Origin: Devosia sp.
Lineage (GTDB): Bacteria > Pseudomonadota > Alphaproteobacteria > Rhizobiales > Devosiaceae
Length of the DNA stretch: 34,142 nucleotides
Direction of reading: 5' to 3'
Assembly (NCBI GenBank): GCA_026126125.1
Contig: JAHCJW010000022.1
Location: 1 to 34,142, forward strand
Below are positions 6,831-32,570 of the stretch, one piece after another. The notes under the pieces were generated by a model that worked only from the letters and a program-made list of their open reading frames with translations, was not told where the DNA came from and did not search any database. Made by a program: the position numbers and the translations under genes. Position 1 is the stretch's first letter, and each line of letters begins with the position of its first letter.

Positions 6831-6849
6831 GTCAACTGTTCCGAAAAAT

Positions 6850-7893
6850 TCAGCCGCGGATCACGCGGATGCGGGCCGGCTCGACGGTCAGGCGCACTTC
6901 GGCACCGTCCGCGAGCACAACGTCATTGGGGGTGAGCGCGCGCAGCGTCTCGCCGGCGAGGGTCATCACATAGCGGTTGCGCGCGCCAAGAAAGACGCGG
7001 GTGCGGATCTTCGCCGCCGGGCCGGCCCCGCTCGTGGTCAGCGACAAATCTTCCTGCCGAATGGCCAGTGTCGCTGTTCCGCGCGCGGTTTCTCCCGTCG
7101 CCAACGCCAGTTCCTGCCCGTCTCCGAGCCTCGCCACCGGCCCCTGGGGGCCATCGACGATCTCTGCGGGCACGAGGTTGGCCGAGCCGATGAAATTGGA
7201 CGCGAAGCTGGTCGCGGGCTGGTTGTAGATCTCGTCCGGCGTGCCTTGCTGCTCGATACGGCCGGCATTGAGCAGCACGATCCGGTCGGAAAGGCTCAGC
7301 GCCTCCTCCTGATCATGCGTCACGAAGATGGTCGTCAATGCCAGCCGGCGGTGGATTTCGATCAGTTCCACCTGCATGTCCTCGCGCAGGCGCGCATCGA
7401 GATTGGAAAGCGGCTCGTCGAGCAGCAGCACCTTGGGATTGGAGACGATGGCGCGCGCCAGCGCCACGCGCTGCTGCTGCCCACCCGAAAGCTGGCGCGG
7501 CTTGCGCTCCGCGAGATGGCCCAATTGCACCGTTTCGAGCGCCGCCCTGACCTTTTCCGCCTGTTCGTCGCGATTGCCGATGCCGCGCATGCGCAGCGGG
7601 AACCGCACATTTTCCGCCACGCTCAGATGCGGCAGCAGAGCATAGGACTGGAACATCATGGCGATGTCGCGCTTTTCGGGCGCCAGGCTGGTGACGTCGC
7701 GCCCGTCGATCTCGACCCGGCCCTCGGTCACGCCTTCGAGGCCGGCGACGATGCGCAGCAGGGTCGTCTTGCCACAGCCGGAGGCGCCCAGCAGCGAAAT
7801 GAACTCACCCGATCTGATGTCGAGCGAAATCCCATGCAGCACGGCGGTCTTGTTGAACGACTTGCGGATGGTTTGGAGGCGAACTTCGGCCAT
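6850..7893 (-). CDS. ABC transporter ATP-binding protein, polyamine/YdcT type
   Basis: 347 residues. Walker A is at 36-44 (GASGCGKTT), followed by a Q-loop (MMFQSYALLPH), the signature LSGGQQQR, Walker B VLLLDEP, D-loop LSNLDA and the switch histidine in FVTHDQEEA. A TOBE domain occupies about residues 280-347. This layout is that of the PotA/MalK-like importer ATPases that energise spermidine/putrescine transporters. It starts 3 bp after the stop of the second permease and precedes the aldehyde dehydrogenase, so it belongs to one operon with them. The start is the ATG at 7893. Confidence 0.92.
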   Translation of the reverse strand: MAEVRLQTIRKSFNKTAVLHGISLDIRSGEFISLLGASGCGKTTLLRIVAGLEGVTEGRVEIDGRDVTSLAPEKRDIAMMFQSYALLPHLSVAENVRFPLRMRGIGNRDEQAEKVRAALETVQLGHLAERKPRQLSGGQQQRVALARAIVSNPKVLLLDEPLSNLDARLREDMQVELIEIHRRLALTTIFVTHDQEEALSLSDRIVLLNAGRIEQQGTPDEIYNQPATSFASNFIGSANLVPAEIVDGPQGPVARLGDGQELALATGETARGTATLAIRQEDLSLTTSGAGPAAKIRTRVFLGARNRYVMTLAGETLRALTPNDVVLADGAEVRLTVEPARIRVIRG

Positions 7894-7896
7894 GGG

Positions 7897-8700
7897 TCAA
7901 GCACTCGCGAACTTGGTGAGGCCCAGCATGCGATCGATGATGACGATCAGCGCGATGGTAAGGGCGATCATGATGGTGGAAACGGCGGCAACCGAAGGAT
8001 CGGGCGAGAATTCGAGCTGGCCGTAGATCTGCACCGGCAGGGTGGTGAGGTTCGGACCGCGCAGGAACAGCGACAAAACCGCCTCGTCAAAGGAGATGTT
8101 GAAGGCGAAGAACGCCCCCGCCGCCAGCCCCGGAACGCATTGCGGCACGACGACGAACCACAGCCTTTGCAGCCGATTGGCGCCCATGGTGCGTGCCGCC
8201 TCTTCGAGATAGGGGTTGGACTCGGACAACACCGCCAAGGTCGTGCGCACCACATAGGGCAGGGCGATGACGGTGTGGCTGAGCGCCAGCACCACCGGAT
8301 TGACCGGCCCGAACGCCGCGCTCCAGAACATCAGCATGCCGATGGCATAGATGATGGTCGGCAGAACCAGCGGCGACAGGAACACGGTGGCCCAAAGCTC
8401 GGAAAACGGCAATTGCCGCCTGTGGATGGCGATGGCCGCTGCTCCGCCGATTAGCGTCGCCAGCACCGTTACCAGCAGGGCGATCTGCAGGCTGATCCAG
8501 CCGGCATTGAGATAGGCGTTGGATGAGAGCACCTGGCTATACCAGCGCAGGCTCAGCCCATTGGGCGGAAAGGCGATGAACTGGCTTTCCGAAACCGAAA
8601 CGCCGACAACCACCACCAGCGGGGCGAGCAGCAACAGGGCGGTGAACGCCAGGAACACACCAGCCAGAACCCGCAGCCAGAACGGAACCGCTTTAACCAT
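7897..8700 (-). CDS. ABC transporter permease, YdcV/PotC-like
   Basis: 267 residues with about six membrane segments. The EAA loop that docks on the ATPase is visible as YLEEAARTMGANRLQRLWF (residues about 165-185). Sequence character fits the second permease of polyamine-type importers. Its ATG overlaps the end of the preceding permease by 8 nt, which implies translational coupling. The substrate is inferred from the linked aldehyde dehydrogenase and PuuD-like gene, not from this protein. Confidence 0.9.
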   Translation of the reverse strand: MVKAVPFWLRVLAGVFLAFTALLLLAPLVVVVGVSVSESQFIAFPPNGLSLRWYSQVLSSNAYLNAGWISLQIALLVTVLATLIGGAAAIAIHRRQLPFSELWATVFLSPLVLPTIIYAIGMLMFWSAAFGPVNPVVLALSHTVIALPYVVRTTLAVLSESNPYLEEAARTMGANRLQRLWFVVVPQCVPGLAAGAFFAFNISFDEAVLSLFLRGPNLTTLPVQIYGQLEFSPDPSVAAVSTIMIALTIALIVIIDRMLGLTKFASA

Positions 8701-9514
8701 TCTTGCCTCCCGTCAGCTTGATATAGGGCAGCAGCACCAGCAGAATGCCGACGAACAGGATCACCGCCTGCGCCGCCGCGAAGGGCCAGTCCGGCGCGCT
8801 GGTAACCGAGCGATAGATCGAGGCGGCCAAGACCTGGATGCGCGAGCCGCCCAGAAGGTTCGGCGTCACGAAAGAACTGGCCGACAGGGTGAAGCATAGC
8901 AGCGATCCGGCGACGATCCCGGGCAGCGCCAGCGGCAGCACCACCGTGCGGACGGTTTGCAGGAAAGAGCAGCCCATGGTCCGCGCGGCCTCTTCCAGCC
9001 GGCCATCGATACGGGTCAGTACACCCAGAATGGAGAGCGTCATGAAGGGCAGCAGCACCTGCACCATGCCCACCACGATGGCGATCTCGGTCTGCATCAG
9101 GGCAAAATTCCGTCCTACGAGGTCGAAATCGCGCAGCATCTGCGGGATCAACCCGCTGCGGCTCAGCAGCACCATCCAGCCGAATGTGCGCACGACAACG
9201 CTCGTCATCAGCGGCAGGATGACCATCACCACCAGCCACAGCCGCAGGCGAGGGCCGACCTTGGTCATGATATAGGCCAGAGGAAAGCCGATGGCGCCGC
9301 AGATCAGGGTGATGAGAAACGACAGCCGCACCGTGCGCCACAAGACGCCCAGATAATATGGGTCGGACAGGAACCGCACGAAATGGTCGAGGGTCGGGCC
9401 GTCGGGACCGGAAATGCTCAGCGCCAGCATCTGCCCGATGGGCAGCAAGAAGGCCAGCGCCAGCAGCAACAGCCCCGGAAGCGCCAGCAGCAGGTTTTCT
9501 GTGCGGTCATTCAT
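8693..9514 (-). CDS. ABC transporter permease, YdcU/PotB-like
   Basis: About 273 residues with six membrane segments and the EAA loop LEEAARTMGCSFLQTVRTVV (about residues 170-190), pairing with the next permease. Neither the ATG at 9514 nor the GTG at 9523 (three residues longer) has a convincing ribosome binding site. Translation initiation may therefore depend on the structured leader just upstream, where an attenuator separates it from the binding-protein gene. Confidence 0.88.
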   Translation of the reverse strand: MNDRTENLLLALPGLLLLALAFLLPIGQMLALSISGPDGPTLDHFVRFLSDPYYLGVLWRTVRLSFLITLICGAIGFPLAYIMTKVGPRLRLWLVVMVILPLMTSVVVRTFGWMVLLSRSGLIPQMLRDFDLVGRNFALMQTEIAIVVGMVQVLLPFMTLSILGVLTRIDGRLEEAARTMGCSFLQTVRTVVLPLALPGIVAGSLLCFTLSASSFVTPNLLGGSRIQVLAASIYRSVTSAPDWPFAAAQAVILFVGILLVLLPYIKLTGGKNG

Positions 9515-9620
9515 GGTTTGCACGCTTTGTCAGGATGGGCATAGGCAACCCACCATATCGCCCTTTGGGCTGTGGTGCGATGCTAAGTCGGAATTGCAAC
9601 CGCCCGCTGGGGCGCGGCGC

Positions 9621-9666
9621 GAAAAGAAACGGTTCGGCCGGTCGAGGGAGGCCCCGGCCGAACCGT
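9621..9666 (-). terminator. Intra-operon terminator/attenuator after the binding-protein gene
   Basis: On the minus strand a perfect 13-bp stem (ACGGTTCGGCCGG / CCGGCCGAACCGT, 12-nt loop, 9629-9666) is followed by TTCTTTTC. This is a good rho-independent terminator. It lies between the binding-protein gene and its permeases, so only part of the transcripts should read on. That is a common way to make more binding protein than membrane subunits. Confidence 0.75.
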
Positions 9667-9669
9667 GAA

Positions 9670-9780
9670 CCGGCGGGGTCTAGGAGGAGAAACCCGCCGG
9701 AAATTATTGTCGAAGACCGCGGCGCCTTTTTGGGTGCTTCTGGGACAGCACCGCTGCGACCCCGTACCGGCCTTCGACAA
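9670..9780 (-). promoter_or_regulatory. Nested inverted repeats in the 277-bp gap of the operon
   Basis: Upstream of the terminator in the same transcript lie an 8-bp stem (CCGGCGGG/CCCGCCGG, 9670-9700) and a 9-nt perfect inverted repeat (TTGTCGAAG/CTTCGACAA, 9707-9715 and 9772-9780), with a small GGTGCT/AGCACC hairpin inside it. These can protect the 3' end of the binding-protein mRNA or fold as alternatives to the terminator. No open frame of coding quality is present in the gap. Confidence 0.45.
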
Positions 9781-9800
9781 CCTCGTTTGGGCAGGCCGGA

Positions 9801-10835
9801 TTACTGGGCGATCGCCCGGTTCCATTCCTCGACCCAGGCCGAGCGGTTGGCTTCGATCACGCTCGGATCGAACCGGAGCAGGCCGGCAACGCCTTCTTCA
9901 CCGTAAGCGACGTCGGCGGCAACCTCGGGGCTCAACTCGGCCTTGGCATTGGTCGGCGAATAGCGCAGCGCTTCGGCAAAGCAGGTCTGCGCCTCAGCCG
10001 AGATCGACTGGTCGATGAACTTCAGCGCCAATTCGGTGTTCGGACGACCGGCCACCAAATTGGCGGTGATGAGGCTGGCCGGGGTGCCTTCCGCGCCCTG
10101 GACGAAGCCGGAGGGCAGGCCGGCCTTGCGCAGCGTGAACGCATAGTCCGAAGCATAGGGGGCGATCAGCGCGCCGTTCTGGGCGAATTCCTGCTGGATT
10201 TCCGGCGAGGTCGCCACCACGGTGGCGCCAGCTTCGAGCAGGGTCTTCACCGCATCCAGACCGGGCTGGATATTGTTCAGATCGCCGCCTTGCACCTGGT
10301 TCAGCATCAGGAAGCTCAGCATACCATAGCCGTTGGAAATATCGGTCAGCACCAGGCCTTCGCTGAATTCAGGATTGAGCAGGTCGGTCCACTTGCTCGG
10401 CGGGGTGGTCAGCTTTTCATTGTTGTAGACGAGGCCGATGGCCGCGATGGAATAGGCCGGGCCTTCACCCTTGGCCAGGTTTGCCTTGGCAAAGGGGTAG
10501 ACATCGGCAGCATTGGTCAGCGCCGCTTCGTCGATCGGGGCGAGCAGGCCTTCGGCGGCACCGACGATTTCCTGGCCACCGGAGAAGTGGATGACGTCGA
10601 ACTGCGGCGCATCTTTCTGGGCGCGCAACTGGGCGAACGCGTCGGCCGAATAGGCGGTGACGACGTTGACCTTGGCGCCGGTCGCCGCTTCGAACGGGCC
10701 GATGATGCAGGCGCGGTGCGCCTCTTCATAAGCGCCACCAAACGAGTTGATGGTCAGCGTGTTGTCCTGCGCGAAGGCCGTGGTGCCCATCAGGGCCGAA
10801 AGGCCGAGCAGGGCGGTGGCAAATTGAGCTTTCAT
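9801..10835 (-). CDS. Periplasmic binding protein of polyamine-type ABC transporter (YdcS/PotD-like)
   Basis: 344 residues with a Sec signal peptide (about residues 1-22, ending ...TTAFA-QD). The mature protein begins with LTINSFGGAYEEAHRACI and has the family-1/8 extracellular solute-binding pattern (FDVIHFSGGQE, YSIAAIGLVYNNEKL, PNTELALKFIDQ). It should capture the substrate in the periplasm for the permeases encoded downstream. The start ATG at 10835 has GGAAGG-like sequence upstream. A GC-rich hairpin precedes the gene and a terminator-like structure follows it, consistent with separate control of its level. The ligand (putrescine, GABA or a related amine) is inferred from neighbours. Confidence 0.9.
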   Translation of the reverse strand: MKAQFATALLGLSALMGTTAFAQDNTLTINSFGGAYEEAHRACIIGPFEAATGAKVNVVTAYSADAFAQLRAQKDAPQFDVIHFSGGQEIVGAAEGLLAPIDEAALTNAADVYPFAKANLAKGEGPAYSIAAIGLVYNNEKLTTPPSKWTDLLNPEFSEGLVLTDISNGYGMLSFLMLNQVQGGDLNNIQPGLDAVKTLLEAGATVVATSPEIQQEFAQNGALIAPYASDYAFTLRKAGLPSGFVQGAEGTPASLITANLVAGRPNTELALKFIDQSISAEAQTCFAEALRYSPTNAKAELSPEVAADVAYGEEGVAGLLRFDPSVIEANRSAWVEEWNRAIAQ

Positions 10836-19910: not shown

Positions 19911-20403
19911 CGTCACCCACCTGAAAGTCGCCCTTCTGCGCAGCGGCCAGGGGCGAGAACAGCGTGCGGTCCGGCTTGATGTCGAGCAGCGGTGTGCCGT
20001 TGAGGCAGTCCATGCCCCGCACATAGAGCATGTTGCCTTCGATCCGCTCGAATTTGACGATGGACGTGGCGATCGGGTTGGGCCGCACCGGAGAGCGAAT
20101 GGAGAAGACTCCTCGCACCGAGCCATCGATTTTGGGACTTTGCAGCACGAGATCGCGGCGGGAATGGTCGAGCCAATAGAGCAGTTCCAGCCGTTCGTAG
20201 AGTTGGATGTCCTGCAAGCCTGCAACCCAGGGCTCGAAGATCTCGATGCGGCAGAGCGGCCCGTCATGCCGGCCCTGGCGCGGACATTCGAGGCGCGAGG
20301 TCCAGGGGGTCTCGATGCGGCCGATATAGAAAAGGCCGGCATCCGAGCGATCCGGTACCTCGACCTGCATCTCGCCGGGACGAATTTCCTGTTCACGCAC
20401 CAT
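19891..20403 (-). CDS. trmO: tRNA (t6A37) N6-methyltransferase TrmO (TsaA)
   Basis: 170 residues with the TsaA/TrmO hallmarks: FYIGRIETPW at the start of the beta-barrel, a LYWLDHSRRD segment, the SAM-site RSPVRPNPIATS, and the C-terminal DCLNGTPLLDIKPD. The enzyme methylates N6-threonylcarbamoyladenosine at position 37 of some tRNAs. It starts inside the end of the ABC ATPase gene (11-nt overlap), so it is translated as the last member of the importer operon, an unexpected setting for a tRNA-modification gene. The end of the gene overlaps that of mop on the opposite strand. Confidence 0.88.
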   Translation of the reverse strand: MVREQEIRPGEMQVEVPDRSDAGLFYIGRIETPWTSRLECPRQGRHDGPLCRIEIFEPWVAGLQDIQLYERLELLYWLDHSRRDLVLQSPKIDGSVRGVFSIRSPVRPNPIATSIVKFERIEGNMLYVRGMDCLNGTPLLDIKPDRTLFSPLAAAQKGDFQVGDVSPLQS

Positions 20404-21187
20404 TTGGGTGCTCCTTTGATCTGGGGGCAATGGAAGAGGAGGCGGCGCCGGGCAGGGCGCCGATCACGACATCGACGCCATAAACCATGCGCATCATATC
20501 GGCGGTCAGCACGTCTCGCGGCGTACCGTGTGCATGAAGCCGCCCATTGAAGATCAGGGCTACGGCATCGCCGATGCGCAAGGCGTGGTCGGGATGGTGG
20601 GTGGATAGCAGTACGGTCATTCCATCGTCGGCCAACGCGCGGACCTGATCGAGGACGCGCATCTGGTTGCCATAGTCAAGGCTGGCCGTCGGCTCGTCCA
20701 TGATCAGGATGCGCGGTTTTTGCGCCAGCGCCCGCGCGATCAGCACGAGTTGCCGCTCGCCGCCCGAGAGTTCGGTATAAGCGCGGTCGGCCAGTCCGAG
20801 CAGGCCAAGCCTATCCAGGCTTTGGCGGGCAATGTCTTCGTCGGCGCCGGAGGGACTTCGATAGGAAGCAAGATGCGGCGTGCGGCCCATCAGCACCACT
20901 TCCAGCACCGAGAAGGGAAACAGGGCCGCATGGGCCTGGGGTACATAGCCCATGGTTTGCGCCAGGTCCTTGCGCCGCCATTCCGACAACGGCCGATCGA
21001 GCAGTCGCATCTTTCCCGATGCATACGGCAGCAGTCCCAGCATGGATTTGAACAGCGTGGTCTTGCCGGCGCCATTGGGGCCGAGCAGGCATGTCACCCC
21101 CTCGGCGATGTCCAGCGTGACATCCGAGACGATCGGGGCGTCGCGATAGCCGACGCTCACCGTGTCGAGGGCGAACGCTACTGCCAC
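20393..21187 (-). CDS. ABC transporter ATP-binding protein, FecE/BtuD type
   Basis: 264 residues from the GTG at 21187, preceded by GGAGG at 5 nt; a GTG at 21214 would add nine residues. Walker A GPNGAGKTT (about 37-45), Q-loop YVPQAH, signature LSGGERQ, Walker B ILIMDEP, D-loop ASLD and switch STHHPDH are intact. This is the single-domain ATPase of importers with FecCD-type permeases (iron-siderophore, cobalamin, and the MolBCA molybdate group). The start overlaps the permease stop by 10 nt and its end overlaps trmO, so all are coupled. Confidence 0.92.
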   Translation of the reverse strand: MAVAFALDTVSVGYRDAPIVSDVTLDIAEGVTCLLGPNGAGKTTLFKSMLGLLPYASGKMRLLDRPLSEWRRKDLAQTMGYVPQAHAALFPFSVLEVVLMGRTPHLASYRSPSGADEDIARQSLDRLGLLGLADRAYTELSGGERQLVLIARALAQKPRILIMDEPTASLDYGNQMRVLDQVRALADDGMTVLLSTHHPDHALRIGDAVALIFNGRLHAHGTPRDVLTADMMRMVYGVDVVIGALPGAASSSIAPRSKEHPNGA

Positions 21188-22188
21188 CCCCGCCTCCCGC
21201 TGGCCAGCAGCCACAAGAAGAAGGGTGCGCCGATAGCCGCCGTCAGAATGCCGAGCGGCACTTCCACACTGGCTATGGTGCGCGCCGCAATATCGACCAC
21301 CAACAGAAACATCGCCCCGAGCAGCATCGAAGCCGGCAGCAGGCGCCGGAAGTCCGGGCCGACCAGCAGCCGGGCGATATGAGGGATGACGAGGCCGATC
21401 CAGCCGATTACCCCGGCTATGGACACCGAGGCGGCGGTGACCAGCGTCGCCGCCGCGATGAGAATGGTCCGCAATAGCCGCGTATTGACCCCCAGGGCCT
21501 TGGCTTCCTCGTCACCCAGGGACATGAGGTTGACCTGCCAGCGCAGCACGAAGAGCGGGACCAAGCCTAGCAGCATCGCCGGCAGGATGGACAGGGCGTC
21601 GCCACGCGTGACGGCGGTCAGGCTGCCCAGCAGCCAATAGGTGATCGCCGGCAGTTGATCATAGGGATCGGCCAGAATTTTGATGAGGGATATGCCGGCA
21701 CCGGCTATGGCGCTGATGGCGACCCCCGCCAGCACCAGCGTCAGCACCGGGTCACGATGCCGGATGGCAAGGCCGATCGAATAGACCGCCAATACGGCAA
21801 GAATGCCGCCGACGAAACTGGTCAGTTGAATCAGGATGACGGGCAGCGAGAGAAAAATGCCGAGCACAGCCCCAAGGCTCGCGCCGGTGGACACGCCCAA
21901 TATGTCCGGCGCCACCAGCGGATTGCGGAACAGCGCCTGAAAAGTCGCGCCAGCCGCAGCCAGCGCCGCCCCGATCAGCAGCCCAGCAATGACCCGAGGG
22001 AAGCGGACATTCCAGATGACGGTCTCGATCCGGGGGTCGAGCGCTTCGTTGCCCCAGGCCCAGCCGAGCCATGCATCGGCAAGCTGCCCCGGGGTGAGCG
22101 GGAACTTGCCGATGACCATGGCAAGGATGATGGCGGCGAGCAGACCCGCGGCCATCATCCAGAGCGATAGTCTATCCCTTGCCGCCAC
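21178..22188 (-). CDS. FecCD-type ABC transporter permease
   Basis: 336 residues with about ten membrane segments. Family marks are FPRVIAGLLIGAALAAAGAT, FRNPLVAPDILGVSTGASLG, the ATPase-contacting loop with GVNTRLLRT, and AGVIGWIGLVIPHIARLLVG. The start is a GTG at 22188, 5 nt after the stop of the binding-protein gene, with coupling likely. The family carries iron chelates, cobalamin, heme or, in the H. influenzae MolB type, molybdate; the protein alone does not say which. Confidence 0.92.
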   Translation of the reverse strand: MAARDRLSLWMMAAGLLAAIILAMVIGKFPLTPGQLADAWLGWAWGNEALDPRIETVIWNVRFPRVIAGLLIGAALAAAGATFQALFRNPLVAPDILGVSTGASLGAVLGIFLSLPVILIQLTSFVGGILAVLAVYSIGLAIRHRDPVLTLVLAGVAISAIAGAGISLIKILADPYDQLPAITYWLLGSLTAVTRGDALSILPAMLLGLVPLFVLRWQVNLMSLGDEEAKALGVNTRLLRTILIAAATLVTAASVSIAGVIGWIGLVIPHIARLLVGPDFRRLLPASMLLGAMFLLVVDIAARTIASVEVPLGILTAAIGAPFFLWLLASGRRGWQ

Positions 22189-22193
22189 GATTA

Positions 22194-23225
22194 TCAGTCT
22201 TCGGCCGGCAAAGCCCTTGCCAGCAGCTTGTCCACCTGCGTGTCACTGATGTCGACGCCATAGAACAGGCTGAAGAATGCCTTGGTATCAGCGCGCAGGT
22301 CGATGTCGACGGCTTCGGGATAAAACAGTTCTTGCAGCCAGCGCACGCCGATCAAGCGATTGGCCGAAGGGGGCGTGTCGATCCAGCCGAACGGCAGCGA
22401 GGGCGCGACATAGACGGCGCCATCGGTGACAGCCTTGAGCGAAGCCCAGTCCGGATTGCTCAAGGCCGCTTCGGCGAAGCTGGCGCGGGCGGCAATGATG
22501 ATATCGGGGTTCCAGTCCAGGATCTGTTCGAGCGACACGTCGGTCAGCCCGCCCTCGCCAGCAGCAGCGGCCGCATTGGCGGCGCCGGCCGCTTCCAGAA
22601 TTTCGACATTGATAGAGCCGGACATCCCGGTTTCCAGCCCTTCGTCGCCACGACCGTAATAGGCGGTCGGACGCTGATCCGCCGGCACCTTTGCGAGCGT
22701 CGTTTCCAATTGCGCCAGCGTCTCGTCGGCGTAACTGGCCAGGAGCTCGGCCCTTGCCTCTTCCCCGAGCAAGTCGCCGAGCAGCCGATAGGTTTCGCCC
22801 GTTGTCTCGAAGCTGCCATCGATCAGGATGTAGGGAACCCCGGTCTGTTCCTGCACCTTGTTGGCCAGATCGATATAGGTGGCGTTGACGGTGCCGACAT
22901 CGATGATGACATCCGGCTTGGCTTGCAGCACCACTTCCATATTGGCGTCCCCGCCACGGCCGGTGAGGCGGCCATAAGTGGGCAGCGCCACAGCCTCCGG
23001 CAGCAGGAACTCAGCCGCTGCTCCGCTTGGTTCTGTCACCCACCCGGCGAGCTTGCCGGGAGAAAGCGTATAAACAAGGACGGCTGCCGGCGGACCGGCC
23101 GGCAAAACCACACCAATCTCATCGGGAATGTCGATGACCCGGCCCCCTGCATCTGTGAACTCCCGCGCATCGAGTGCTGTGGTGCCGAGGGCAAGGGCAG
23201 TTAAAGTCAGCAGACGTCCGAGCAT
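22194..23225 (-). CDS. Periplasmic binding protein of FecCD-type importer, possibly for molybdate
   Basis: 343 residues from the ATG at 23225, which has GGAG 6 nt upstream; upstream ATGs at 23237 and 23249 lack this. The signal peptide is about residues 1-20. The fold is the helical-backbone Peripla_BP_2 type: EFTDAGGRVIDIPDEI at the start, VVLQAKPDVIIDVG, SLEQILDWNPDIII, WASLKAVTDGAVYVAP and FGWIDTPPSANRLIGVRWL near the end. I see most likeness to MolA-like and iron-complex binding proteins. Neighbouring mop and the Mo-box-like palindrome 42 bp upstream favour molybdate or tungstate; an iron chelate remains the main alternative. Confidence 0.85.
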   Translation of the reverse strand: MLGRLLTLTALALGTTALDAREFTDAGGRVIDIPDEIGVVLPAGPPAAVLVYTLSPGKLAGWVTEPSGAAAEFLLPEAVALPTYGRLTGRGGDANMEVVLQAKPDVIIDVGTVNATYIDLANKVQEQTGVPYILIDGSFETTGETYRLLGDLLGEEARAELLASYADETLAQLETTLAKVPADQRPTAYYGRGDEGLETGMSGSINVEILEAAGAANAAAAAGEGGLTDVSLEQILDWNPDIIIAARASFAEAALSNPDWASLKAVTDGAVYVAPSLPFGWIDTPPSANRLIGVRWLQELFYPEAVDIDLRADTKAFFSLFYGVDISDTQVDKLLARALPAED

Positions 23226-23266
23226 TCGAGTCTCCATTGTGGTCCGCATCGAGTAGTAGGCCACAA

Positions 23267-23290
23267 CGATATGTGTGGCAAAACATATCG
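23267..23290. promoter_or_regulatory. Palindrome resembling a ModE-type molybdate box
   Basis: A perfect 8-bp inverted repeat CGATATGT / ACATATCG with an 8-bp spacer lies 42 bp upstream of the binding-protein start. Each half differs by one base from the CGNTATAT half-site that I recall for ModE/MopA boxes. Position suits a repressor site at the importer promoter. Identity as a Mo box is inference. Confidence 0.45.
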
Positions 23291-23446
23291 AGCATGCACT
23301 CATAGAAAGTGGCTCGGACCATGATAATGCCGGCGCTGGGCCGCAGGATCGGCGCATTCGGCGGGGCAGGACGGCCTTCGATCGTGTCCCTTGGCGTGGT
23401 GTAACTGAGGCAGGGCCTCCACGCATATCCGGCTCGGCCGGGTTGG

Positions 23447-23745: not shown

Positions 23746-24750
23746 CTACTGAACCGCCATTGCCTGGTGCAGCGAGAAGGCGCGGCCTTCGGCGACGGCG
23801 TGGCAGGCAACGCGCGTGGGGCCGACAGCGGTCAACGCGGGCAATTCGGCCTTGCAGCGGTCGTTGGCGAGGGGGCAGCGCGGGTGGAACGGGCAGCCGC
23901 TTGGCGGATTCAGCGGCGATGGCAGTTCGCCAGCTAGCCGCAGGCGTTTTCCACGCTGGTCCGGATCGGCGACAGGCGTCGCCGAGAGCAGGGCTTGCGA
24001 ATAGGGATGGTGGGGGTTGGCAAACAGCGTCGCTGCCGGGGCCACTTCCACGATATGGCCCAGATACATCACCATCACATCGTCGGCGATGTGGCGAACC
24101 ACTGCGAGATTGTGGGAGATGAACATCATGGTGAGGTTGAGCTGTTTCTTCAGCAGGCGCAGCAGGTTCAGGATCTGCGCCTGAACGGAAACGTCGAGCG
24201 CGGATGTCGGCTCGTCGCAGACCAGCAGTTCGGGCTCAAGGATAAGCGCGCGAGCGATGCCGATGCGCTGGCGCTGACCGCCGGAAAATTCATGCGGATA
24301 GCGATCGGCTGCCTGTGCCGGCAGGCCCACACGCTGCAGGATTTCTCCGACTGCCTGGCGCTGGCTAGCGGCGTCGCCAATGCCATGCACGACGAGGCCT
24401 TCGGCGATCGACGCGCCGACCGGCACACGCGGGTCGAGGGACGAGTACGGGTCCTGGAACACCATCTGGATCCGGCGGGTGGAGGCAACGTCAATGCCGG
24501 AGGTGGCGTTGTTGATCTGCTTGCCGTCAAAGATGATCTGGCCGCCACTGGCCGGGTGCAGCCCGACAACGACCCGCGCCAGGGTCGATTTTCCGCACCC
24601 GCTTTCACCGACCACGCCCAGGGTACGCCCCCGCTCGATAGACAGATCGATGTCGGTGACCGCGTTGACGCGGCCGACGACCCGCTGAAGGGCACCGCCC
24701 CTGATCACGAATTCCTTGCGGACGCCGCGCAGTTCCAGCAAAGCGCTCAT
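23746..24750 (-). CDS. Di/oligopeptide ABC transporter ATPase, DppF/OppF type
   Basis: 334 residues. Walker A is at 48-56 (GESGCGKST), then [13 protein letters not shown] (Q-loop), signature FSGGQRQR, Walker [13 protein letters not shown] and switch FISHNLAVV. The C-terminal oligopeptide-transporter extension has [13 protein letters not shown] and a cysteine group ([10 protein letters not shown]...DRC) as in the family. The ATG at 24750 overlaps the stop of the partner ATPase as ATGA. It is the last gene of the transporter operon. Confidence 0.92.
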
Positions 24751-25763
24751 ACCAGTTCGACCTCTCTTGAGGATTCGTCTGCCGACGGTGCCGTCAGCCA
24801 GCACCGGCAATGGTGTCCCGGTCCGACGCGGAGCAGGTCGGGGGTGATTGTGGTGCAGCGTGACTCATCGGCAGTGCGTCGGACAGCGCAACGAGGCGCA
24901 AACAGGCACCCCTCGGGCAGATTGGTCAATTGGGGCACCCGCCCCTCGATTACTTCAAGCATGTCCTGGCTGGCGCCCATGCTGGGGACCGAGCGCAGCA
25001 GGGCCTGCGTGTAGGGGTGCTTGGGCGACTTGAACAGCGTGCGCACGTCTGCGTATTCGACGATCTGCCCGGCATACATCACCGCTACATGGTCTGCCAT
25101 TTCGGCGACGACACCAAGGTCGTGCGTGATCAGGATGATGGCGGTGCCGAAATCCTTCTGCAGTTGGCGCATGAGCTCGAGAATCTGCGCCTGGATGGTG
25201 ACGTCGAGGGCAGTGGTCGGCTCGTCGGCGATGAGAACCTCGGGTTGGCAGGCGAGCGCCATGGCGATCATGATGCGCTGCGCCATGCCGCCGGACATCT
25301 CATGGGGATAGGCCTTCATGCGCCGCTGCGGATCGGGAATACCCACAGCGCCAAGCAGTTCGACGGCGGCGGCTTCGGCCTGCTTGGCATCCATGCCCTT
25401 ATGCAGCCGGTAGACCTCGGCAATCTGCTTGCCGACAGTATGGACGGGATTGAGCGCCGAGGATGGGTCCTGGAAGATCATCGACAAACGATTGCCGCGT
25501 ACCTTTGCGGTTTCGGCCGGCGTCATCTTGCGCAGGTCGGCGCCGGTCAGGAGCACTTCGCCGCCCACAACCTTGCCCGGATAGGGCACCAGCCCGGCCA
25601 CGCTCAACGCCGTGATCGATTTACCGCAACCGCTCTCTCCAACGATGCACAGCGTTTCCCCTGCGTTCAGATCGAGAGTGACCGCGTCTACGGCCAGTGC
25701 GTCGCCGGCCCTGGTGGAAAAGACCGTGCTGAGATTGCGGATTTGAAGGATAGGCTCGCTCAT
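24747..25763 (-). CDS. Di/oligopeptide ABC transporter ATPase, DppD/OppD type
   Basis: 338 residues with Walker A at 42-50 (GESGCGKSI), Q-loop [13 protein letters not shown], signature MSGGMAQR, Walker [13 protein letters not shown] and switch LITHDLGVV, plus the C-terminal [12 protein letters not shown] extension and cysteine cluster (GCLFAPRC). It pairs with the DppF-type subunit as a heterodimer. The ATG at 25763 has a GGGG nearby; an ATG at 25781 overlapping the upstream permease stop is an alternative. Confidence 0.92.
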
Positions 25764-25773
25764 CGCAACCCCG

Positions 25774-26727
25774 TCAGGCATTCAGGCGCGGATCAAGCGC
25801 GTCGCGCAGACCGTCGCCGAGAAGGTTGAAACCGAGCACCGTGATAACGATCGCGATGCCAGGGAAGAACACCAGATGGGGAGACGAGAAGATCTGATCC
25901 TTCTCGCTGCCCAGCATCGTGCCCCACTCGGCCATCGGCGGCTGTGCGCCAAGCCCCAGGAAGCTGAGCCCTGCCGCTTCGAGAATGCCGCCGGCGATAC
26001 CCATGGTCGCCAGGACGACGATGGGGGTCAGTGCATTTGGCAGCACCCGGGTGAACAATATCCGCCACTTGCTGGCGCCCAGCACGCGGCTGGCCGACAC
26101 GAAGTCCTGAGACTTTACCGACAACACGCTGGCTCTGGTGACACGGGCATAGCCTGGCACTGACACCACGGAGATGGCGAGCAGGGCGTTGACGATACCC
26201 GGCCCGAGCACCGCCACGATGGCGATGGCCAAGAGCAGCGACGGAAAGCCCAGGATCACATCCATCACGCGCATGATCAAATTATCCAGCCAGCCGCCGA
26301 AGAAGCCGGCGATCGCTCCCAGAAACACGCCCATCACCAGCGCCGCCGACACGGTGATGACACCGATCATCAGGCTGATCCGTGAGCCGTACACGAGCCT
26401 CGAGAACACATCGCGCGCATTGCCATCGATCCCCATGATATGCTGTGGCTTGGCCACATCGCAGCCCAACAGGTGCACACAGGGGGCCTCACGGCGCTTG
26501 ATGTCCTCGACCCCGATCAGGACCTGGTTCGGATCATATGGGGCAATGATCGGGGCGAAGATCGCCACCAGTATCATAAAGCCGATAAAGATCATGCCGA
26601 CCTGCGCGGAGCGCTTGCGCAGCAGGCGCTTCCACGTCTGCTTCCACAGCGGCACCGGATTGCCGAGCAGGCCATCCTCGATAACAATTTCGGCCGCTCT
26701 GGCGGTAGCAGCATCGAGACTCGTCAT
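25774..26727 (-). CDS. Di/oligopeptide ABC transporter permease, DppC type
   Basis: 317 residues. A cytosolic N-terminal region (about 1-35, RLLRKRSAQVG) precedes the first membrane segment, then a periplasmic loop with two cysteines (APCVHLLGCD), the ...GTDANARDVFSRLVYGSR-like segment (here GIDGNARDVFSRLVYGSRIS), five further membrane segments and the EAA-type loop around ASRVLGASKWRILFTRVLPN. All are typical of the DppC subunit, which pairs with DppB. It starts 9 bp after the DppB-type gene. Confidence 0.92.
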   Translation of the reverse strand: MTSLDAATARAAEIVIEDGLLGNPVPLWKQTWKRLLRKRSAQVGMIFIGFMILVAIFAPIIAPYDPNQVLIGVEDIKRREAPCVHLLGCDVAKPQHIMGIDGNARDVFSRLVYGSRISLMIGVITVSAALVMGVFLGAIAGFFGGWLDNLIMRVMDVILGFPSLLLAIAIVAVLGPGIVNALLAISVVSVPGYARVTRASVLSVKSQDFVSASRVLGASKWRILFTRVLPNALTPIVVLATMGIAGGILEAAGLSFLGLGAQPPMAEWGTMLGSEKDQIFSSPHLVFFPGIAIVITVLGFNLLGDGLRDALDPRLNA

Positions 26728-26736
26728 ATTGTGGTC

Positions 26737-27816
26737 CTATTGAGGCCGAACGCGTGGGTCGAGATAGGTGTAGGAGAGGTCCACGATCAGATTCACGACG
26801 ACATAGATGGTGGCGATCAGTACGGTGAAGCCCTGCACGATCGGATAGTCACGGGCAAAGATCGCTTCGACCAGCATGCGTCCTACCCCGGCTAAGCCGA
26901 ACACGGTCTCGGTCAACACCGCGCCACTGAGCAAGGCGCCCATCTGCAGCCCCAGAATGGTCACCACCGGCAGCATGGCGTTGCCCAGCGCGTGGCGTTG
27001 AACCACCTTGTTGTCAGGCACGCCCTTGGCCCGGGCGGTTCGGACATAGTCGCGTCCCAGCACGTCGAGCAGCGATGAGCGGGTCATGCGCGCGATCACC
27101 GCCATCGGAATGGTGGCCACGGTCAGCGCCGGCAGAATCATGTGCCGGATCGCATCATTGAAGACGGCCCAGTTGAAGGTGATCAGTGCATTGAAAATAT
27201 AGAAATTGGAGATGAACTCGGCGAACTGGGCCCCGAAGGTCCCCTTCGCCATCTGCCAGCCCCAAACATCGTAGAACGGCACCGAAACCAGTCCTGCCGT
27301 CAGTCGGCCGGATGGTGGCAGCCAGAGCGGTGTGCCTTTCAGCGCCACGCCGAAGACATAGGCCATCATCAGGCCGAGCCAGAATACCGGCATGGCGATG
27401 CCGACATTGGCGATCGCCATCGTGCCGACGTCACCAGCGGTATTGTGCCGTCGCGCCGCGAAGATACCAATGGCAATACCGCAGATAGTGGCGACGATCA
27501 GCGCCAAAAACGCCAGTTCAATGGTCATCGGCAGGCGCTCGATGATGATTTGTGACACCGGCCGCGAGAAGCGGATGGAATTGCCGAAATTGCCCTGGGC
27601 CACGTCGCGCAGATAATAAAAGAACTGCACCCAGATGGGTTGGTCCAGCCCAAAATTGCGGGCGAACTCGGCGCAGGTTGCCTCACTGACCTTGTCGCCC
27701 AGCATGGCTTTGCACGGGTCGCCGGGGATCAGGCGAGCGAGGGAAAAGGTGACCACAAGGATGCCAAACAACACGGGAATGGCGCTGAGTAGTCGTTTGA
27801 TCGCGTATCCGAGCAT
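26737..27816 (-). CDS. Di/oligopeptide ABC transporter permease, DppB type
   Basis: 359 residues, longer than E. coli DppB by roughly twenty because of an extended central loop (about residues 190-225). The N-terminus AIKRLLSAIPVLFGILVVTF is the family start, followed by RLIPGDPC, then GNFGNSIRFSRPV, and the EAA loop YVRTARAKGVPDNKVVQRHA and ETVFGLAGVGRML. Two cysteines lie in the first periplasmic loop (PCKAMLGDKVSEATC). It forms the channel with the DppC-type subunit. The gap to the binding-protein gene (73 bp) contains a hairpin. Confidence 0.92.
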   Translation of the reverse strand: MLGYAIKRLLSAIPVLFGILVVTFSLARLIPGDPCKAMLGDKVSEATCAEFARNFGLDQPIWVQFFYYLRDVAQGNFGNSIRFSRPVSQIIIERLPMTIELAFLALIVATICGIAIGIFAARRHNTAGDVGTMAIANVGIAMPVFWLGLMMAYVFGVALKGTPLWLPPSGRLTAGLVSVPFYDVWGWQMAKGTFGAQFAEFISNFYIFNALITFNWAVFNDAIRHMILPALTVATIPMAVIARMTRSSLLDVLGRDYVRTARAKGVPDNKVVQRHALGNAMLPVVTILGLQMGALLSGAVLTETVFGLAGVGRMLVEAIFARDYPIVQGFTVLIATIYVVVNLIVDLSYTYLDPRVRPQ

Positions 27817-27889: not shown

Positions 27890-29509
27890 TTAATTGGTGG
27901 CGGCGTTCATCAGGCCCCAGAGCGACGAGAAGTAATCGAACGCACCGGTGTTACCAAGGTGCGACGGGTTGGTCACATCGAGGCCGGCAGCATAGGAGGC
28001 AACCACGTCATTGGCGTCGAAATCCGAACCGTCGGTGAACTTCACGCCCTGGCGGAGGTGGCAGGTCCACGCGGTGGCATCGTCGTTCGGATCACAGCTG
28101 GTCGCAAGACCACCCACGACAGAGCCGCTATCCTGCGCATAGTCAAGCAGGGTTTCGGTGATCTGCGTGCACACCAGGGTCGACTCGCCGTCGGATTCGT
28201 CACCGCAGTAGAGGCTGATCGGCTCAGCGTTCTGCATGACCACCATGGTGTCCTTGCCCGGATCGGCCAAGCCGAACTGCTTGGCGCCGAATGGACGGTA
28301 GCCGGCGTTCTTTACATAGTCGCGCGCTGCGGAACCGGCCGCGGCGTGCGAGATCGGCACCATCGGCACCAACTCGCGAATGGCGTTGTTGACCTGCTCA
28401 TACACCGGCTTGGCTAGCTCGACGTCGGCAATCTGGGAGCCCTTGATCAGCGGTTCGTAGATCGCCGGGAGGGATTCACCAAACTGCTTCACGTCCTTGC
28501 CGAAATGATAGTCGAGGAAGTTGGTGATGTGCGGGTAGTCCGCGCCCCAACCGAGCATGTAGAGGCCATCGAGGTTGCCGGCGCTGGCTTGGCCGATGAA
28601 ATCGCCCGATTCGAGCGGAACGACCTCTGCGTCGATGCCAAGATTGGCCTTCAACTGCGCCTGGAATTCCACCGCAAAGGTGGTCGGTTCCGGCAGGTAG
28701 ACGCGGAATACGTCACGCAGGTAGATCTTGGTCTTGAAGCCATCGGGGTAGCCAGCTTCAGCCAGCAATTGCTTGGCAGCAGCCGGATCGAAATCGTACC
28801 AAGACTCGCCCGCACAACCGTTGGGAATAGTGCACGGCGTGAAGTAGTCGGCGACTTCCGAACCTTCGGGGAGGTAGTTGTTGACGATGCGCTGGCGGTC
28901 GATGCCCATCGCGATGGCCTGGCGCACTTTCACATTGTCGAAAGGCGGAAAGGTGTTGGTCATGCCCAAATACAGAACGTTCGGGCCAGACTGCGGCAGG
29001 AACTGCAGATCGGCATCGTTCTGGACGGCGCTGAAATCGTCGGGGCTCAACGTGCTGATCTGGTCGACGGTGCCTGAGCGGAGCTCGTTCAACTGGTTGG
29101 CGCCGGAGGTGCTCCAACGGAACACCAGCGTCTCGTAGGCAGGCTTGTCGCCCCAATAGTCGTCATTGCGTTTCAGGATGATGGAATCGCCGCGATTCCA
29201 CGACTCGAGCTTGAAGGGGCCCGTCCCGATCGGATTGGTCAGGATGTCCTTGGTCGTGCCAACGGTCTTGATGTGCTCAGACGGCTGAATCCCAAAGGAA
29301 ACGAATGCAACCTTGGGCTCGAATGCCGGATCTGCAGAGCACATTTCAAAGGATACGGTGTGCTCATCGATAGCGCGGATTGCGCTGATCTTCCCGCCGT
29401 AATCACAGTTGGGAGCAACGAGCGAGTCTCCTTCGAAACTCATGGCCGAACCCATCGACATCGCTGTCATTGTGAGCGCAGTCGCGCTCATGAATACTAT
29501 TCGCCTCAT
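27890..29509 (-). CDS. Circularly permuted family-5 peptide-binding protein
   Basis: 539 residues from ATG 29509 (GAGGAA 8 nt upstream), with a signal peptide (about 1-24). The mature start is not that of DppA/OppA. It enters the fold in the middle (ISAIRAIDEHTVSFEM, then NPIGTGPFK at 92-100, RNDDYWG to 120, FDNVKVRQAIAMGID, LLAEAGYPDG), runs to the usual C-terminal region (RELVPMVPISHAA), and then adds at 427-539 the part normally found at the N-terminus (NAEPISLYCGDESDGES, ITETLLDY, TCHLRQGVKFTDGSDFDA-like, ANDVVASY). All pieces are present once, in rotated order. Eight cysteines fall in close pairs (35/57, 435/447, 472/483 and one central pair), suggesting disulfides. It is the first gene of the transporter operon. 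Confidence 0.9.
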   Translation of the reverse strand: MRRIVFMSATALTMTAMSMGSAMSFEGDSLVAPNCDYGGKISAIRAIDEHTVSFEMCSADPAFEPKVAFVSFGIQPSEHIKTVGTTKDILTNPIGTGPFKLESWNRGDSIILKRNDDYWGDKPAYETLVFRWSTSGANQLNELRSGTVDQISTLSPDDFSAVQNDADLQFLPQSGPNVLYLGMTNTFPPFDNVKVRQAIAMGIDRQRIVNNYLPEGSEVADYFTPCTIPNGCAGESWYDFDPAAAKQLLAEAGYPDGFKTKIYLRDVFRVYLPEPTTFAVEFQAQLKANLGIDAEVVPLESGDFIGQASAGNLDGLYMLGWGADYPHITNFLDYHFGKDVKQFGESLPAIYEPLIKGSQIADVELAKPVYEQVNNAIRELVPMVPISHAAAGSAARDYVKNAGYRPFGAKQFGLADPGKDTMVVMQNAEPISLYCGDESDGESTLVCTQITETLLDYAQDSGSVVGGLATSCDPNDDATAWTCHLRQGVKFTDGSDFDANDVVASYAAGLDVTNPSHLGNTGAFDYFSSLWGLMNAATN

Positions 29510-29932
29510 CAATCAGATTCCTCTTATCCAGTTGTGGGGATTGAAAATTCCGGCAAATTTCCGCCCAGGCGCAGACACGGTCTATTATCATGCCCAGTAT
29601 TCTAAATCGTTCGGATGGTGCTCTATTGCTACCCTGCCGTTTGGCCTCCAGCGGCATCTGCGCCCAAGAACGCCGGAGCCTAAGTCGGTTCCATTCCTCC
29701 CCTTTGGAACGGTCGGATGTCAGACAATTGTATGTCGGGCGGCCTGTCAAGCCCGCGAACCGGACTTGGGGCGGGGAAATGGGTAAACGGCCCCTCCCGA
29801 TAATTGACCCTGATCGCTGCAGCCGACAGGCGAGGCACTCTTGCTTACTGACTGAGCCTGGGGTTCTTATGCGACGCGGCAATCGCGCGCCGAGAACCGA
29901 AACCTCTCATACCAGCAGCAGATACGGTGCCA
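29510..29932. other. 423-bp divergent intergenic region of the peptide-use locus
   Basis: No coding frame of quality was found. The region must hold promoters for the transporter operon (leftward) and the peptidases (rightward). A TAGAAT on the minus strand about 100 bp from the binding-protein start could be a -10 element but lacks a clear -35. The most notable element is the palindrome at 29719-29736. Confidence 0.5.
29719..29736. promoter_or_regulatory. Imperfect palindrome, candidate GntR/FCD operator
   Basis: GTCAGACAA/TTGTATGTC matches at 7 of 9 positions around a perfect ACAATTGT core. FCD-type GntR regulators often bind short TTGT..ACAA palindromes. A GntR/FCD gene (now broken) lies at the far side of the two peptidase genes. 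Assignment is inference. Confidence 0.3.
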
Positions 29933-31324
29933 ATGTCTGACCTCGAACCTGTCCTCAACCAGGCGGAAACCAATCTCGAATCAAGTCTGCAGACTCTGTT
30001 CGAGCTGGTACGCATCCCCTCGATCTCGACCGATCCGGCCCATGCAGGCGACTGCCAAAACGCGGCGCAACTGCTGTCGGATTATCTTGCCACGCTGGGG
30101 TTTGACGCTTCGGTGCGTGAAACGATCGGACACCCGATGGTGGTGGCGCATCATGACGGCGCGACGCCGGACAGCCCGCACTTTTTGTTCTACGGGCACT
30201 ATGACGTTCAACCCGTCGATCCACTGCACCTGTGGACCCATCCCCCGTTCGAGCCCGCCATCCGCATCGGCGCCAAGGGCCAGAAGATCATTTCCGGTCG
30301 CGGTACTTGCGATGACAAGGCGCAGCTTATGACCTTCCTGGAAGCGGTGCGCGCTTTCAAGGAAGTGCGCGGGACCCTGCCAGCCCGTATCTCGATCATA
30401 TTCGAAGGTGAGGAAGAATGCGGCTCGCCCTCTGCCCGCCCTTTCCTTGAAGCCAACAAGGAGGAACTGAAGGCCGATTACGTGCTGGTTTGCGATACCG
30501 GCATGTGGGACGAGGACACCCCCTCGATCTGTGCCGGATTACGCGGCCTGGTCGGTGAAGAGATCAAGATCTATGCCGCCAGCCACGATCTGCATTCGGG
30601 TGGTTTTGGTGGTATCGCCGCCAATCCACTGCATATTATCAGCGATATCCTTGCCGGTCTTCACGCTAAGGACGGTACCGTTACCCTGCCGGGCTTCTAC
30701 GACGGCGTCCGCGAAACGCCCGCGGAGCTCAAAAAAGTCTGGGATGAACTCGAGCGCTCGAAGCCGCATGTGCTCGATCAGGTTGGCCTTTCGATCCCCG
30801 TGGGCGAAAAGAACCGCTCCATGCTGGAGCTCAACTGGGCTCGCCCGACCGCTGAAGTGAACGGCATCAGTGGTGGCTATGCCGGCGAGGGCTTCAAGAC
30901 GGTGATTCCGGCGGAAGCTACTGCCAAGGTCTCATTCCGCCTGGTGCACGACCAGGATCCGCTCAAGATCCGCGAGAGCTTTCGCGCCTATGTCCGCTCG
31001 AAGGTGCCGGCCGACTGCCGCGTGGAATTCGTGGACCATGGCGCTGCGCCAGCTGTGCAGCTGCCGTATGACGCGCCCATCCTCGACAAGGCCAAACGGG
31101 CGCTGCTCGGTGAGTGGTCGAATCCGGCCATCGTCACTGGCGGTGGCGGGTCGATCCCAATCGTCGGCGATTTCGGCACCATCCTGGGCATGGATGCGCT
31201 GCTGGTGGGCTGGGGCAATGCCGACGACCGCGGTCACTCGCCGAACGAGAAGTACAATCTGAGCTCGTTCGAAAAGGGTATTCGCGGCTGGATCCGCATC
31301 CTCGACGCCATCACCACCCCATAA
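29933..31324 (+). CDS. M20-family metallopeptidase (dipeptidase)
   Basis: 463 residues, cytosolic (no signal). The two-zinc site is visible: His89 and Asp91 (FYGHYDVQ), Asp127 (GRGTCDDKAQ), catalytic and metal glutamates near 160-161 (FEGEEECGS), Asp in VCDTGMW, and a final His in DRGHSPNEKY. The lid/dimerisation domain contains DLHSGGFGG. This is the pattern of nonspecific dipeptidases of the CNDP/PepV-like group. It is divergent from the peptide transporter operon and likely cleaves imported peptides. The ATG at 29933 gives the usual short N-terminus; GTG 29927 is possible. Confidence 0.9.
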   Translation: MSDLEPVLNQAETNLESSLQTLFELVRIPSISTDPAHAGDCQNAAQLLSDYLATLGFDASVRETIGHPMVVAHHDGATPDSPHFLFYGHYDVQPVDPLHLWTHPPFEPAIRIGAKGQKIISGRGTCDDKAQLMTFLEAVRAFKEVRGTLPARISIIFEGEEECGSPSARPFLEANKEELKADYVLVCDTGMWDEDTPSICAGLRGLVGEEIKIYAASHDLHSGGFGGIAANPLHIISDILAGLHAKDGTVTLPGFYDGVRETPAELKKVWDELERSKPHVLDQVGLSIPVGEKNRSMLELNWARPTAEVNGISGGYAGEGFKTVIPAEATAKVSFRLVHDQDPLKIRESFRAYVRSKVPADCRVEFVDHGAAPAVQLPYDAPILDKAKRALLGEWSNPAIVTGGGGSIPIVGDFGTILGMDALLVGWGNADDRGHSPNEKYNLSSFEKGIRGWIRILDAITTP

Positions 31325-31463
31325 GTCGCACCGCGACGCTCCAACGGATGTGACCGATGATCGATGGCAGCGGGTCACGAGCCCGCATCCGGCGAAACCA
31401 GCACGGTCTACCGCTCCGGAGCGGCGGCAGGGCCGAAATGAAGATCCCCGAAGGAGGACGACT

Positions 31464-32570
31464 GTGACTGTTGATACCAAGGCAAGGCTCGCCGAGTTGC
31501 GCGAGCGGATGAGCGCGCAGGGCGTCGATCTGGTCGCCCTCGCGCCGAGCCCGCATATGGACTGGCTTGTGGGCTTTCATCCCATGCTGTGCGAACGCCC
31601 TTGCCTGCTGCTTGTCGGGCCGGAGCACGAGGCGTTCCTGATGCCTGCACTCAACGCCGAGGGCGCGCGCGAGTCGACGGCGATCCCGTTTTACGTGTGG
31701 TCCGATGATGTCGGTCCGCGCGCTGCCTTTGCCGAGGCCCTCGCGAATGTCGGTGGCACCGCCGCACGCCATGTCGCGTTCGATGAGACCATGCGCATTG
31801 ATTTCGCGATGCTGTTGCTCGACGCCCTGCCTGGCGCCAAGCGGAGTTTCACCGACGATACGCTCGGCTATCTGCGCATGCGCAAGGATGAGCGCGAATA
31901 TGCGGCGTTGAAAAAGAATGCGCTCATCGCCGATCGGGCGATGCAGGCGGGATTTGCGGCGATACGCCCTGGCATGACCGAGAGCGAGCTGGCGGCCATC
32001 ATCAGCGATCATTTTAGTGCCGAAGGCGCACCGATGCAGTTCGCGGTCGTCGCCACCGGGCCCAATGGCGCCTTCCCGCATCACCACACTGGCGACCGAA
32101 AGTTGGCTGAAGGCGATGCCGTGGTCATGGATATCGGGGGACGGACCGACGGCTTCCCCAGCGACATCACGCGCATGGCAGTTGTCGGCCGCGCGCCCGA
32201 GGGCTACGGCGAGATTCACTCCATCGTCGAGCGCGCCGTGCAGGCCGCCCTCAAGGCAGCACGACCAGGTGTTCTGGCCCGCGATGTCGACGCCGCGGCC
32301 CGCAAAGTCATCACCGATGCCGGGTATGGCGAGTATTTCGTCCACCGTACTGGCCACGGCATGGGCATTGGCGGGCATGAGCCGCCCTACATCACGGCAA
32401 CCTCCGACACCGAGCTTGCCGAAGGCATGGTGTTCTCGATCGAGCCGGGCATCTACATCCCGGGTCGGTTCGGCATCAGGCTCGAAGATATCGTAATCCT
32501 GCGCGCGGACGGGCCGGAGATCCTCTCTGGGCTGTCGCGCGACGTGTATGGAGCGGCAATCCCCGGGTAG
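31464..32570 (+). CDS. M24-family Xaa-Pro peptidase
   Basis: 368 residues from the GTG at 31464, preceded by AAGGAGG at 6 nt. An N-terminal creatinase-like domain (1-135) is followed by the pita-bread domain with all metal ligands: Asp223 (VVMDIGG), Asp234 (PSDITR), His298 (HRTGHGMG), Glu327 (FSIEPGIY) and Glu341 (IRLEDI). It would remove N-terminal residues before proline or split Xaa-Pro dipeptides in the cytosol. It follows the M20 gene by 139 bp, a gap that contains the 14-nt palindrome CCGCTCCGGAGCGG (31411-31424), so the two may or may not share a transcript. Confidence 0.9.
   Translation: MTVDTKARLAELRERMSAQGVDLVALAPSPHMDWLVGFHPMLCERPCLLLVGPEHEAFLMPALNAEGARESTAIPFYVWSDDVGPRAAFAEALANVGGTAARHVAFDETMRIDFAMLLLDALPGAKRSFTDDTLGYLRMRKDEREYAALKKNALIADRAMQAGFAAIRPGMTESELAAIISDHFSAEGAPMQFAVVATGPNGAFPHHHTGDRKLAEGDAVVMDIGGRTDGFPSDITRMAVVGRAPEGYGEIHSIVERAVQAALKAARPGVLARDVDAAARKVITDAGYGEYFVHRTGHGMGIGGHEPPYITATSDTELAEGMVFSIEPGIYIPGRFGIRLEDIVILRADGPEILSGLSRDVYGAAIPG

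Follow-up and report, generated by a model that had tools for sequence, protein, structure and literature searches.

The stretch of DNA analyzed here, which we call the window, comprises 34,142 nucleotides of a contig from Devosia sp. (JAHCJW010000022.1, assembly GCA_026126125.1). Its reverse strand encodes a family-5 (SBP_bac_5, DppA-type) binding protein in which the blocks of the fold stand in a permuted order, and downstream of it follow genes for two permeases and two oligo_HPY ATPases, the composition of a DppBCDF importer (Table 1). An alternative TTG start would place the binding protein frame at 27890-29512 (-). A preliminary description of this DNA had called the DppBCDF-type partners intact, and the Pfam domains of all four genes confirm it. 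Divergent genes for M20- and M24-family peptidases adjoin the binding protein gene, an arrangement seen in the window and at four other loci (L009, L010, L155, and L156); at L154, from the window's family, the operon is present without adjoining peptidase genes. Where they occur, these peptidases fit peptide uptake followed by hydrolysis. Next downstream of the DppF-type gene, at 20393-23426 (-), lies a further uptake set made up of Peripla_BP_2, a FecCD permease, and an ABC ATPase, families with an iron or vitamin B12 type of role.

Table 1. Features of the permuted binding protein and its neighborhood in the window.
Feature	Position	Strand	Basis or remarks
Permuted SBP_bac_5 (DppA-type) binding protein	27890..29509	-	539 aa + stop, ATG start
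Signal peptide, residues ~1-23, type I-like, no lipobox	29441..29509	-	Sequence reading; rough lipobox pattern scan
Main block, now first (canonical profile positions 62 onward)	28256..29440	-	
Old N-terminal block, now last (profile positions 2-57)	27893..28255	-	Pfam, phmmer, block profile
Cys35/Cys57 pair, beside the new N-terminus	29339..29407	-	78-row alignment, Cys35 sought within 15 columns; both in 76/78 rows, neither in 1, one in 1
Cys226/Cys232 pair	28814..28834	-	Both in 69/78 rows, neither in 9, one in 0
Arg269 (E. coli DppA R355 mature, R383 precursor)	28703..28705	-	phmmer alignment, hand-counted
Asp324 (E. coli DppA D408 mature, D436 precursor)	28538..28540	-	phmmer alignment, hand-counted
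Cys435/Cys447 pair, beside the old N-terminus	28169..28207	-	Both in 76/78 rows, neither in 1, one in 1
Cys472/Cys483 pair	28061..28096	-	Both in 60/78 rows, neither in 18, one in 0
DppB-type permease	26737..27816	-	PF00528, PF19300
DppB scoop loop, Cys35...Cys48 with D41-K42 charge pair	27673..27714	-	DppB alignment; loop role from excerpts of PMC12136057
DppC-type permease	25774..26727	-	PF00528, PF12911
DppD-type ATPase	24747..25781	-	PF00005, PF08352
DppF-type ATPase	23746..24810	-	PF00005, PF08352
M20-family peptidase, divergent	29927..31324	+	PF01546, PF07687
M24-family peptidase	31350..32570	+	PF00557, PF01321

Block Order and Predicted Fold

The preliminary description held that the block normally found first in this family stands last here, and PF00496, E. 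coli DppA, and a profile of the block itself all align in this swapped order. PF00496 covers the protein in two stretches, profile positions 2-57 and 62-364 of 368, with a total of 272.5 bits against a Pfam cut-off of 32.4. With the two parts searched separately, residues 38-339 of the fragment 1-426 matched profile positions 62-364 (E 5.3e-65) and the last 113 residues matched positions 2-57 (E 5.3e-15); positions 62-364 thus precede 2-57, in violation of the N-to-C order of the profile. By phmmer, residues 41-412 correspond to residues 124-501 of E. coli DppA (1dpe) and residues 453-530 to residues 35-118. A profile built from the last 127 residues of 19 permuted sequences matched 82 solved sequences, the 60 displayed all near their N-termini; the best match among those listed was 3m8u (residues 13-126, E 4.2e-17), and DppA 1dpp was matched at residues 32-118 (E 4.3e-14). 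The matches listed from Pfam, PDB sequence, Foldseek, and superposition searches were all family-5 binding proteins, with no cluster B protein among them. Against NF043070, the DppA equivalog, the protein scored 181.1 bits, below the NCBIfam cut-off of 1005.

Each canonical block is present once, as had been proposed: a scripted scan of the permuted loci found no ORF with two old N-terminal blocks. The old block does lie at the C-terminus, but by the block split it begins near residue 419 (nt 28255), a little ahead of the residue 427 first suggested, and only a short linker separates it from residue 412, the equivalent of DppA 501. In L028-like canonical rows, the nearest by the FastTree tree, the new termini fall between YYWQTVFGGF and YESCEATDESTV, and the breakpoint position is a loop in canonical relatives. 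As read from these alignments, the protein is a circular permutant, with all blocks present once, their order rotated, and the breakpoint in a loop; it differs from DppA-type proteins in block order, not in content.

An AlphaFold model of the permuted protein reached a pLDDT of 87.3 and a pTM of 0.84, and the best Foldseek match a TM of 0.69. The main block could be superposed on DppA-like structures in alignments limited to model residues 3-396, so that for the C-terminal block the fold is supported by sequence and model confidence. Folded alone, that block is poor (pLDDT 46.6), and within the whole chain it is better (ten-residue mean pLDDT 69-97), behavior in keeping with a segment of a larger lobe. 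By sequence, the chain starts in the loop that canonically follows the old N-terminal block, continues through the remainder of the fold, and ends, past the short linker, with the old N-terminal block itself; it would form the same two-lobed fold as a canonical binding protein.

Putative Ligand Residues and Permease Contacts, and Cysteine Pairs

According to excerpts of PMC12136057, R383 and D436 of the E. coli DppA precursor bind the carboxyl and amino groups of the dipeptide, no binding is detected once both are changed, and the two residues form pairs with E41 and R42, which belong to the scoop loop of DppB. The equivalents of Arg269 and Asp324 were kept in 77 and 78, respectively, of the 78 permuted rows of our first set. 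In the larger set of 134 rows (138 permuted ORFs minus 4 short ones), the arginine was kept in 131, the exceptions being L136, L217, and L218, and the aspartate in 133, with L217 as the exception. Asp324 and Arg269 would clamp the two ends of a dipeptide, the amino and the carboxyl group, respectively.

DppB lies directly downstream of the permuted gene in 68 of 81 ORFs. For the 13 others, the room available was under 500 bases in 3, about 1500 in 3, and over 5000 in 7 (L027, L135, L136, L137, L138 twice, and L147); L135 has DppB/C on the opposite strand and L137 is the first of a tandem pair. Two permuted genes stand in tandem at L137 and L138 (G889), and a radical SAM gene was found just upstream of the permuted gene at L015, L151, and L152 (3 of 10 neighboring ORFs scanned). 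In permuted-locus DppB rows, the acid and the base of the scoop loop were each kept in 66 of 68, and canonical DppB rows had them in 10/11 and 11/11. Because the charge pair is kept in canonical DppB as well, it points to the ordinary Dpp mechanism and not to a special one. The two cysteines around the loop, Cys35 and Cys48, were both present in 67 of the 68 permuted-locus rows and at neither position in 11/11 canonical DppB rows.

The binding protein itself has four closely spaced cysteine pairs. In nearly all of the 78 rows the two members of a pair are either both present or both absent, and we infer that they form disulfides. An earlier suggestion that such pairs may staple the new termini finds partial support in this joint conservation; Cys35/Cys57 sits beside the new N-terminus and Cys435/Cys447 beside the old one.

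That the permuted protein still works is supported by its conserved ligand residues and its partner permease, and it is very probably a functioning family-5 binding protein of a Dpp-type importer. We infer closure of the fold, docking, and transport by this system: the protein would dock on the DppBC pair of its own operon, the scoop loop of DppB would reach into the cleft, DppBCDF would import the peptide, and the adjoining M20 and M24 peptidases would then cut it. A dipeptide is the likely substrate, a reading that the conserved arginine and aspartate alone do not prove.

Distribution and Phylogeny of the Permuted Family

Searches for relatives with the same order returned 81 distinct permuted ORFs, and 138 after targeted fetching, a set that includes ORFs from 40 regions fetched for long open frames; the 78-row comparisons use the 81 ORFs without L022, L146, and L166, which are short. 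The family ranges over Devosiaceae, Actinomycetota, and above all Chloroflexota. A scan of genome contigs kept 80 loci, 19 of them (L009-L027) with permuted ORFs and the remainder with canonical ones, apart from L063, which yielded only the main block. The permuted protein occurs at E 1e-100 in 7 of the 136 genomes of the window's family, a count that includes the window's own genome and two single-contig genomes, and in the sample of its class, the window's own genome is the one positive among 385. Permuted proteins were present in 54 of 400 genomes of the Chloroflexota sample (phylum of G524), in 124 of 298 genomes of the class sample of G722 (phylum of G524), and in 4 of 296 genomes of the actinobacterial phylum sample (phylum of G529); 72,556 plasmid records gave no tblastn match at E 1e-50. 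The many permuted ORFs, forming one clade, bear out the preliminary view of an unrecognized subfamily as opposed to a unique protein.

In a FastTree tree of re-ordered rows, a branch with support 99 separates the permuted sequences from the canonical ones (78 permuted vs. 71 canonical rows). A mixture-model tree of hand-picked rows recovered a single permuted clade at 100/99 from the main block (36 permuted and 25 canonical rows), and a tree of the old N-terminal block, also from hand-picked rows (26 permuted and 27 canonical), likewise gave one at 100/99. In the FastTree tree, the permuted rows group with 20 actinobacterial canonical rows (support 99), and the nearest canonical row in the main-block tree is L061, which is long-branched (89/58). 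The free tree of the old N-terminal block does not hold the permuted clade together with actinobacterial canonical rows; constraining it to do so was not rejected (AU p 0.108). The simplest account is that the rotation arose once, as far as the trees show. Devosiaceae-family rows nest among Chloroflexota and Actinomycetota rows in the main-block tree. Together with the scattered occurrence of the protein within the window's family, this nesting makes it probable that Devosiaceae acquired the operon horizontally, with Chloroflexota or Actinomycetota as the donor.

N-Terminal Fusions and Composite Clusters in Chloroflexota

The new N-terminus of Chloroflexota members often carries extra binding domains. 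Among the 138 permuted ORFs, 37 score as fusions with SBP_bac_3 and 7 as fusions with Peripla_BP_6, counts that are not frequencies, as the set is enriched for long open frames. An open frame of at least 750 aa was counted by hand in 51 of 131 matches from the G722 class sample; a long frame does not equal a domain, and 8 long ORFs of the 138-ORF set have no assigned domain. Up to three binding domains occur in one chain. By Pfam, L206 (1140 aa, 4621-8040 (-)) joins Peripla_BP_6, SBP_bac_3, and the permuted SBP_bac_5, and is the sole one of the seven Peripla_BP_6 fusions that also has SBP_bac_3; L238 (1337 aa, 6266-10276 (+)) has two Peripla_BP_6 stretches. Further fusions of the permuted domain with SBP_bac_3 and/or Peripla_BP_6 occur at L025, L020, L126, L101, L179, and L237. 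One FastTree tree implies 8 gains or losses of the fused state, 6 of which are required by well-supported branches.

Gene labels in other genomes (HisM, GlnQ, LivG, LivF, DppB, and the like) were assigned by phmmer to seeds, and Pfam confirmation covers the representatives scanned. A HisM-type permease lies downstream of DppC in 20 of the 35 loci displayed. Four of eight loci with longer flanks (L240, L241, L242, and L246) have a composite same-strand cluster in the order Peripla_BP_6 gene, two hydrophobic ORFs, LivG, LivF, SBP_bac_3-permuted SBP_bac_5 fusion, DppB, DppC, HisM, GlnQ; the gene families of the L240 cluster were confirmed by Pfam. No DppD or DppF was labeled inside or right after these four clusters, and L242 has a DppF-like ORF (249 bits) at the upstream edge of its stretch. 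L239 and L245 showed no Liv genes upstream within the stretch examined, the Peripla_BP_6 fusions of L243 and L244 are accompanied by DppB and DppC, and at L222, an SBP_bac_3 fusion, DppD and DppF follow DppC. A DppBC pair lacking DppD and DppF may borrow the ATPases of neighboring systems. We tentatively raise a further idea, for which the odds are somewhat unfavorable, that the permuted domain could be the hub of multi-headed Chloroflexota receptors, so that a single chain would serve two or more of the permeases in a composite cluster.

One frame at L201 (1908-5165 (+)) encodes the permuted SBP_bac_5 preceded, in this order, by a caspase domain (Peptidase_C14), an FHA domain, and a hydrophobic helix. 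To judge by these domains, the protein resembles a solute sensor that spans the membrane and has its protease part in the cytoplasm; no DppB was labeled in the 9 kb of this locus.

Alternative Explanations

Several other readings of the block order were weighed. Were the C-terminal block an unrelated extra domain, a normal N-lobe start should lie elsewhere in the chain; the chain holds no second old N-terminal block, and the PF00496 alignment and the block profile, which matches the N-termini of DppA-like structures down to E 4.2e-17, refute this scarcely credible reading. An assembly or frameshift artefact, a thought invited by the 302 contigs of the window's own assembly, is equally far-fetched, as the same order recurs on other contigs, among them the single-contig genomes G052 and G104 and a 2.7 Mb Devosia contig (L009), and in 81 distinct ORFs; this reading too is refuted. 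Domain shuffling, by which the N-terminal block was lost and that of another family-5 gene added C-terminally, would give the same final order. It draws on the tree of the old N-terminal block, which leaves the sister group unfixed, and the authors of the MglB-2 study raised the same option for their protein (excerpts of PMC4990184). We consider it unlikely, since each block is present once per ORF and yields a single permuted clade at 100/99 in both trees, and tandem duplication with trimming of one gene is simpler. A rotation of one gene is accordingly favored in our reading of the sequences over a swapped-in block.

With regard to function, a ligand other than a dipeptide, or a role chiefly as a sensor in part of the family, is possible but improbable, though about twice as likely as domain shuffling. 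Family-5 proteins bind many solutes, to judge by the titles of the matched structures, in some permuted relatives the gene that comes next is not DppB, and the domain combination of L201 would suit a sensor; against this, the DppA arginine and aspartate and the charge pair of the DppB scoop are kept, and in Devosia-type loci DppBCDF and peptidase genes are adjacent. Membrane anchoring was also considered as the reason for the permutation and rejected: a rough pattern finds a lipobox-like signal in 65 of 81 permuted ORFs, and it is absent in the 7 Devosiaceae-family rows (L001, L009, L010, and L092-L095).

Relation to Known Systems

The permuted system resembles E. coli DppA/DppABCDF in having all blocks of the fold, the dipeptide-clamping arginine and aspartate, and a DppBCDF operon, and resembles E. 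coli DppB in the scoop loop with its acid-base pair. It differs from E. coli DppA in chain order and in the clade-typical cysteine pairs of the binding protein, with one more in the DppB scoop. Our search of the open-access literature, aimed at permutation and covering few subscription papers, found no permuted DppA/OppA-type protein among the titles listed and met one natural permutation of an importer binding protein, MglB-2 (Tp0684) of Treponema pallidum. Excerpts of PMC4990184 describe MglB-2 as a permuted glucose-binding protein, proposed as "Type Ic / Cluster Bc." Like the present family, it is a binding protein of an ABC importer that has been circularly permuted in nature, with the old N-terminal strands at the end; as far as these excerpts go, it is unlike the family in belonging to cluster B and binding a sugar, and its fold, breakpoint, and ligand are different. 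The permuted family-5 protein is best read as the cluster C counterpart of permuted MglB-2. The SBP_bac_3 and Peripla_BP_6 fusions recall the tandem substrate-binding domains of GlnPQ, with more than one binding domain per chain; in GlnPQ, according to excerpts of PMC8025302, the permease has the tandem domains attached to it, whereas the fusions join binding domains of different Pfam families and their permeases are separate genes.

What emerges is a large single-clade family that extends across phyla and has its own permease signature. With so many natural permuted relatives at hand, comparisons could show what moving the termini does to anchor point, disulfides, and fusion point. The fusions hint at a use of the new N-terminus in building multi-substrate receptors, which, if true, would change the view of peptide and amino acid uptake in Chloroflexota.
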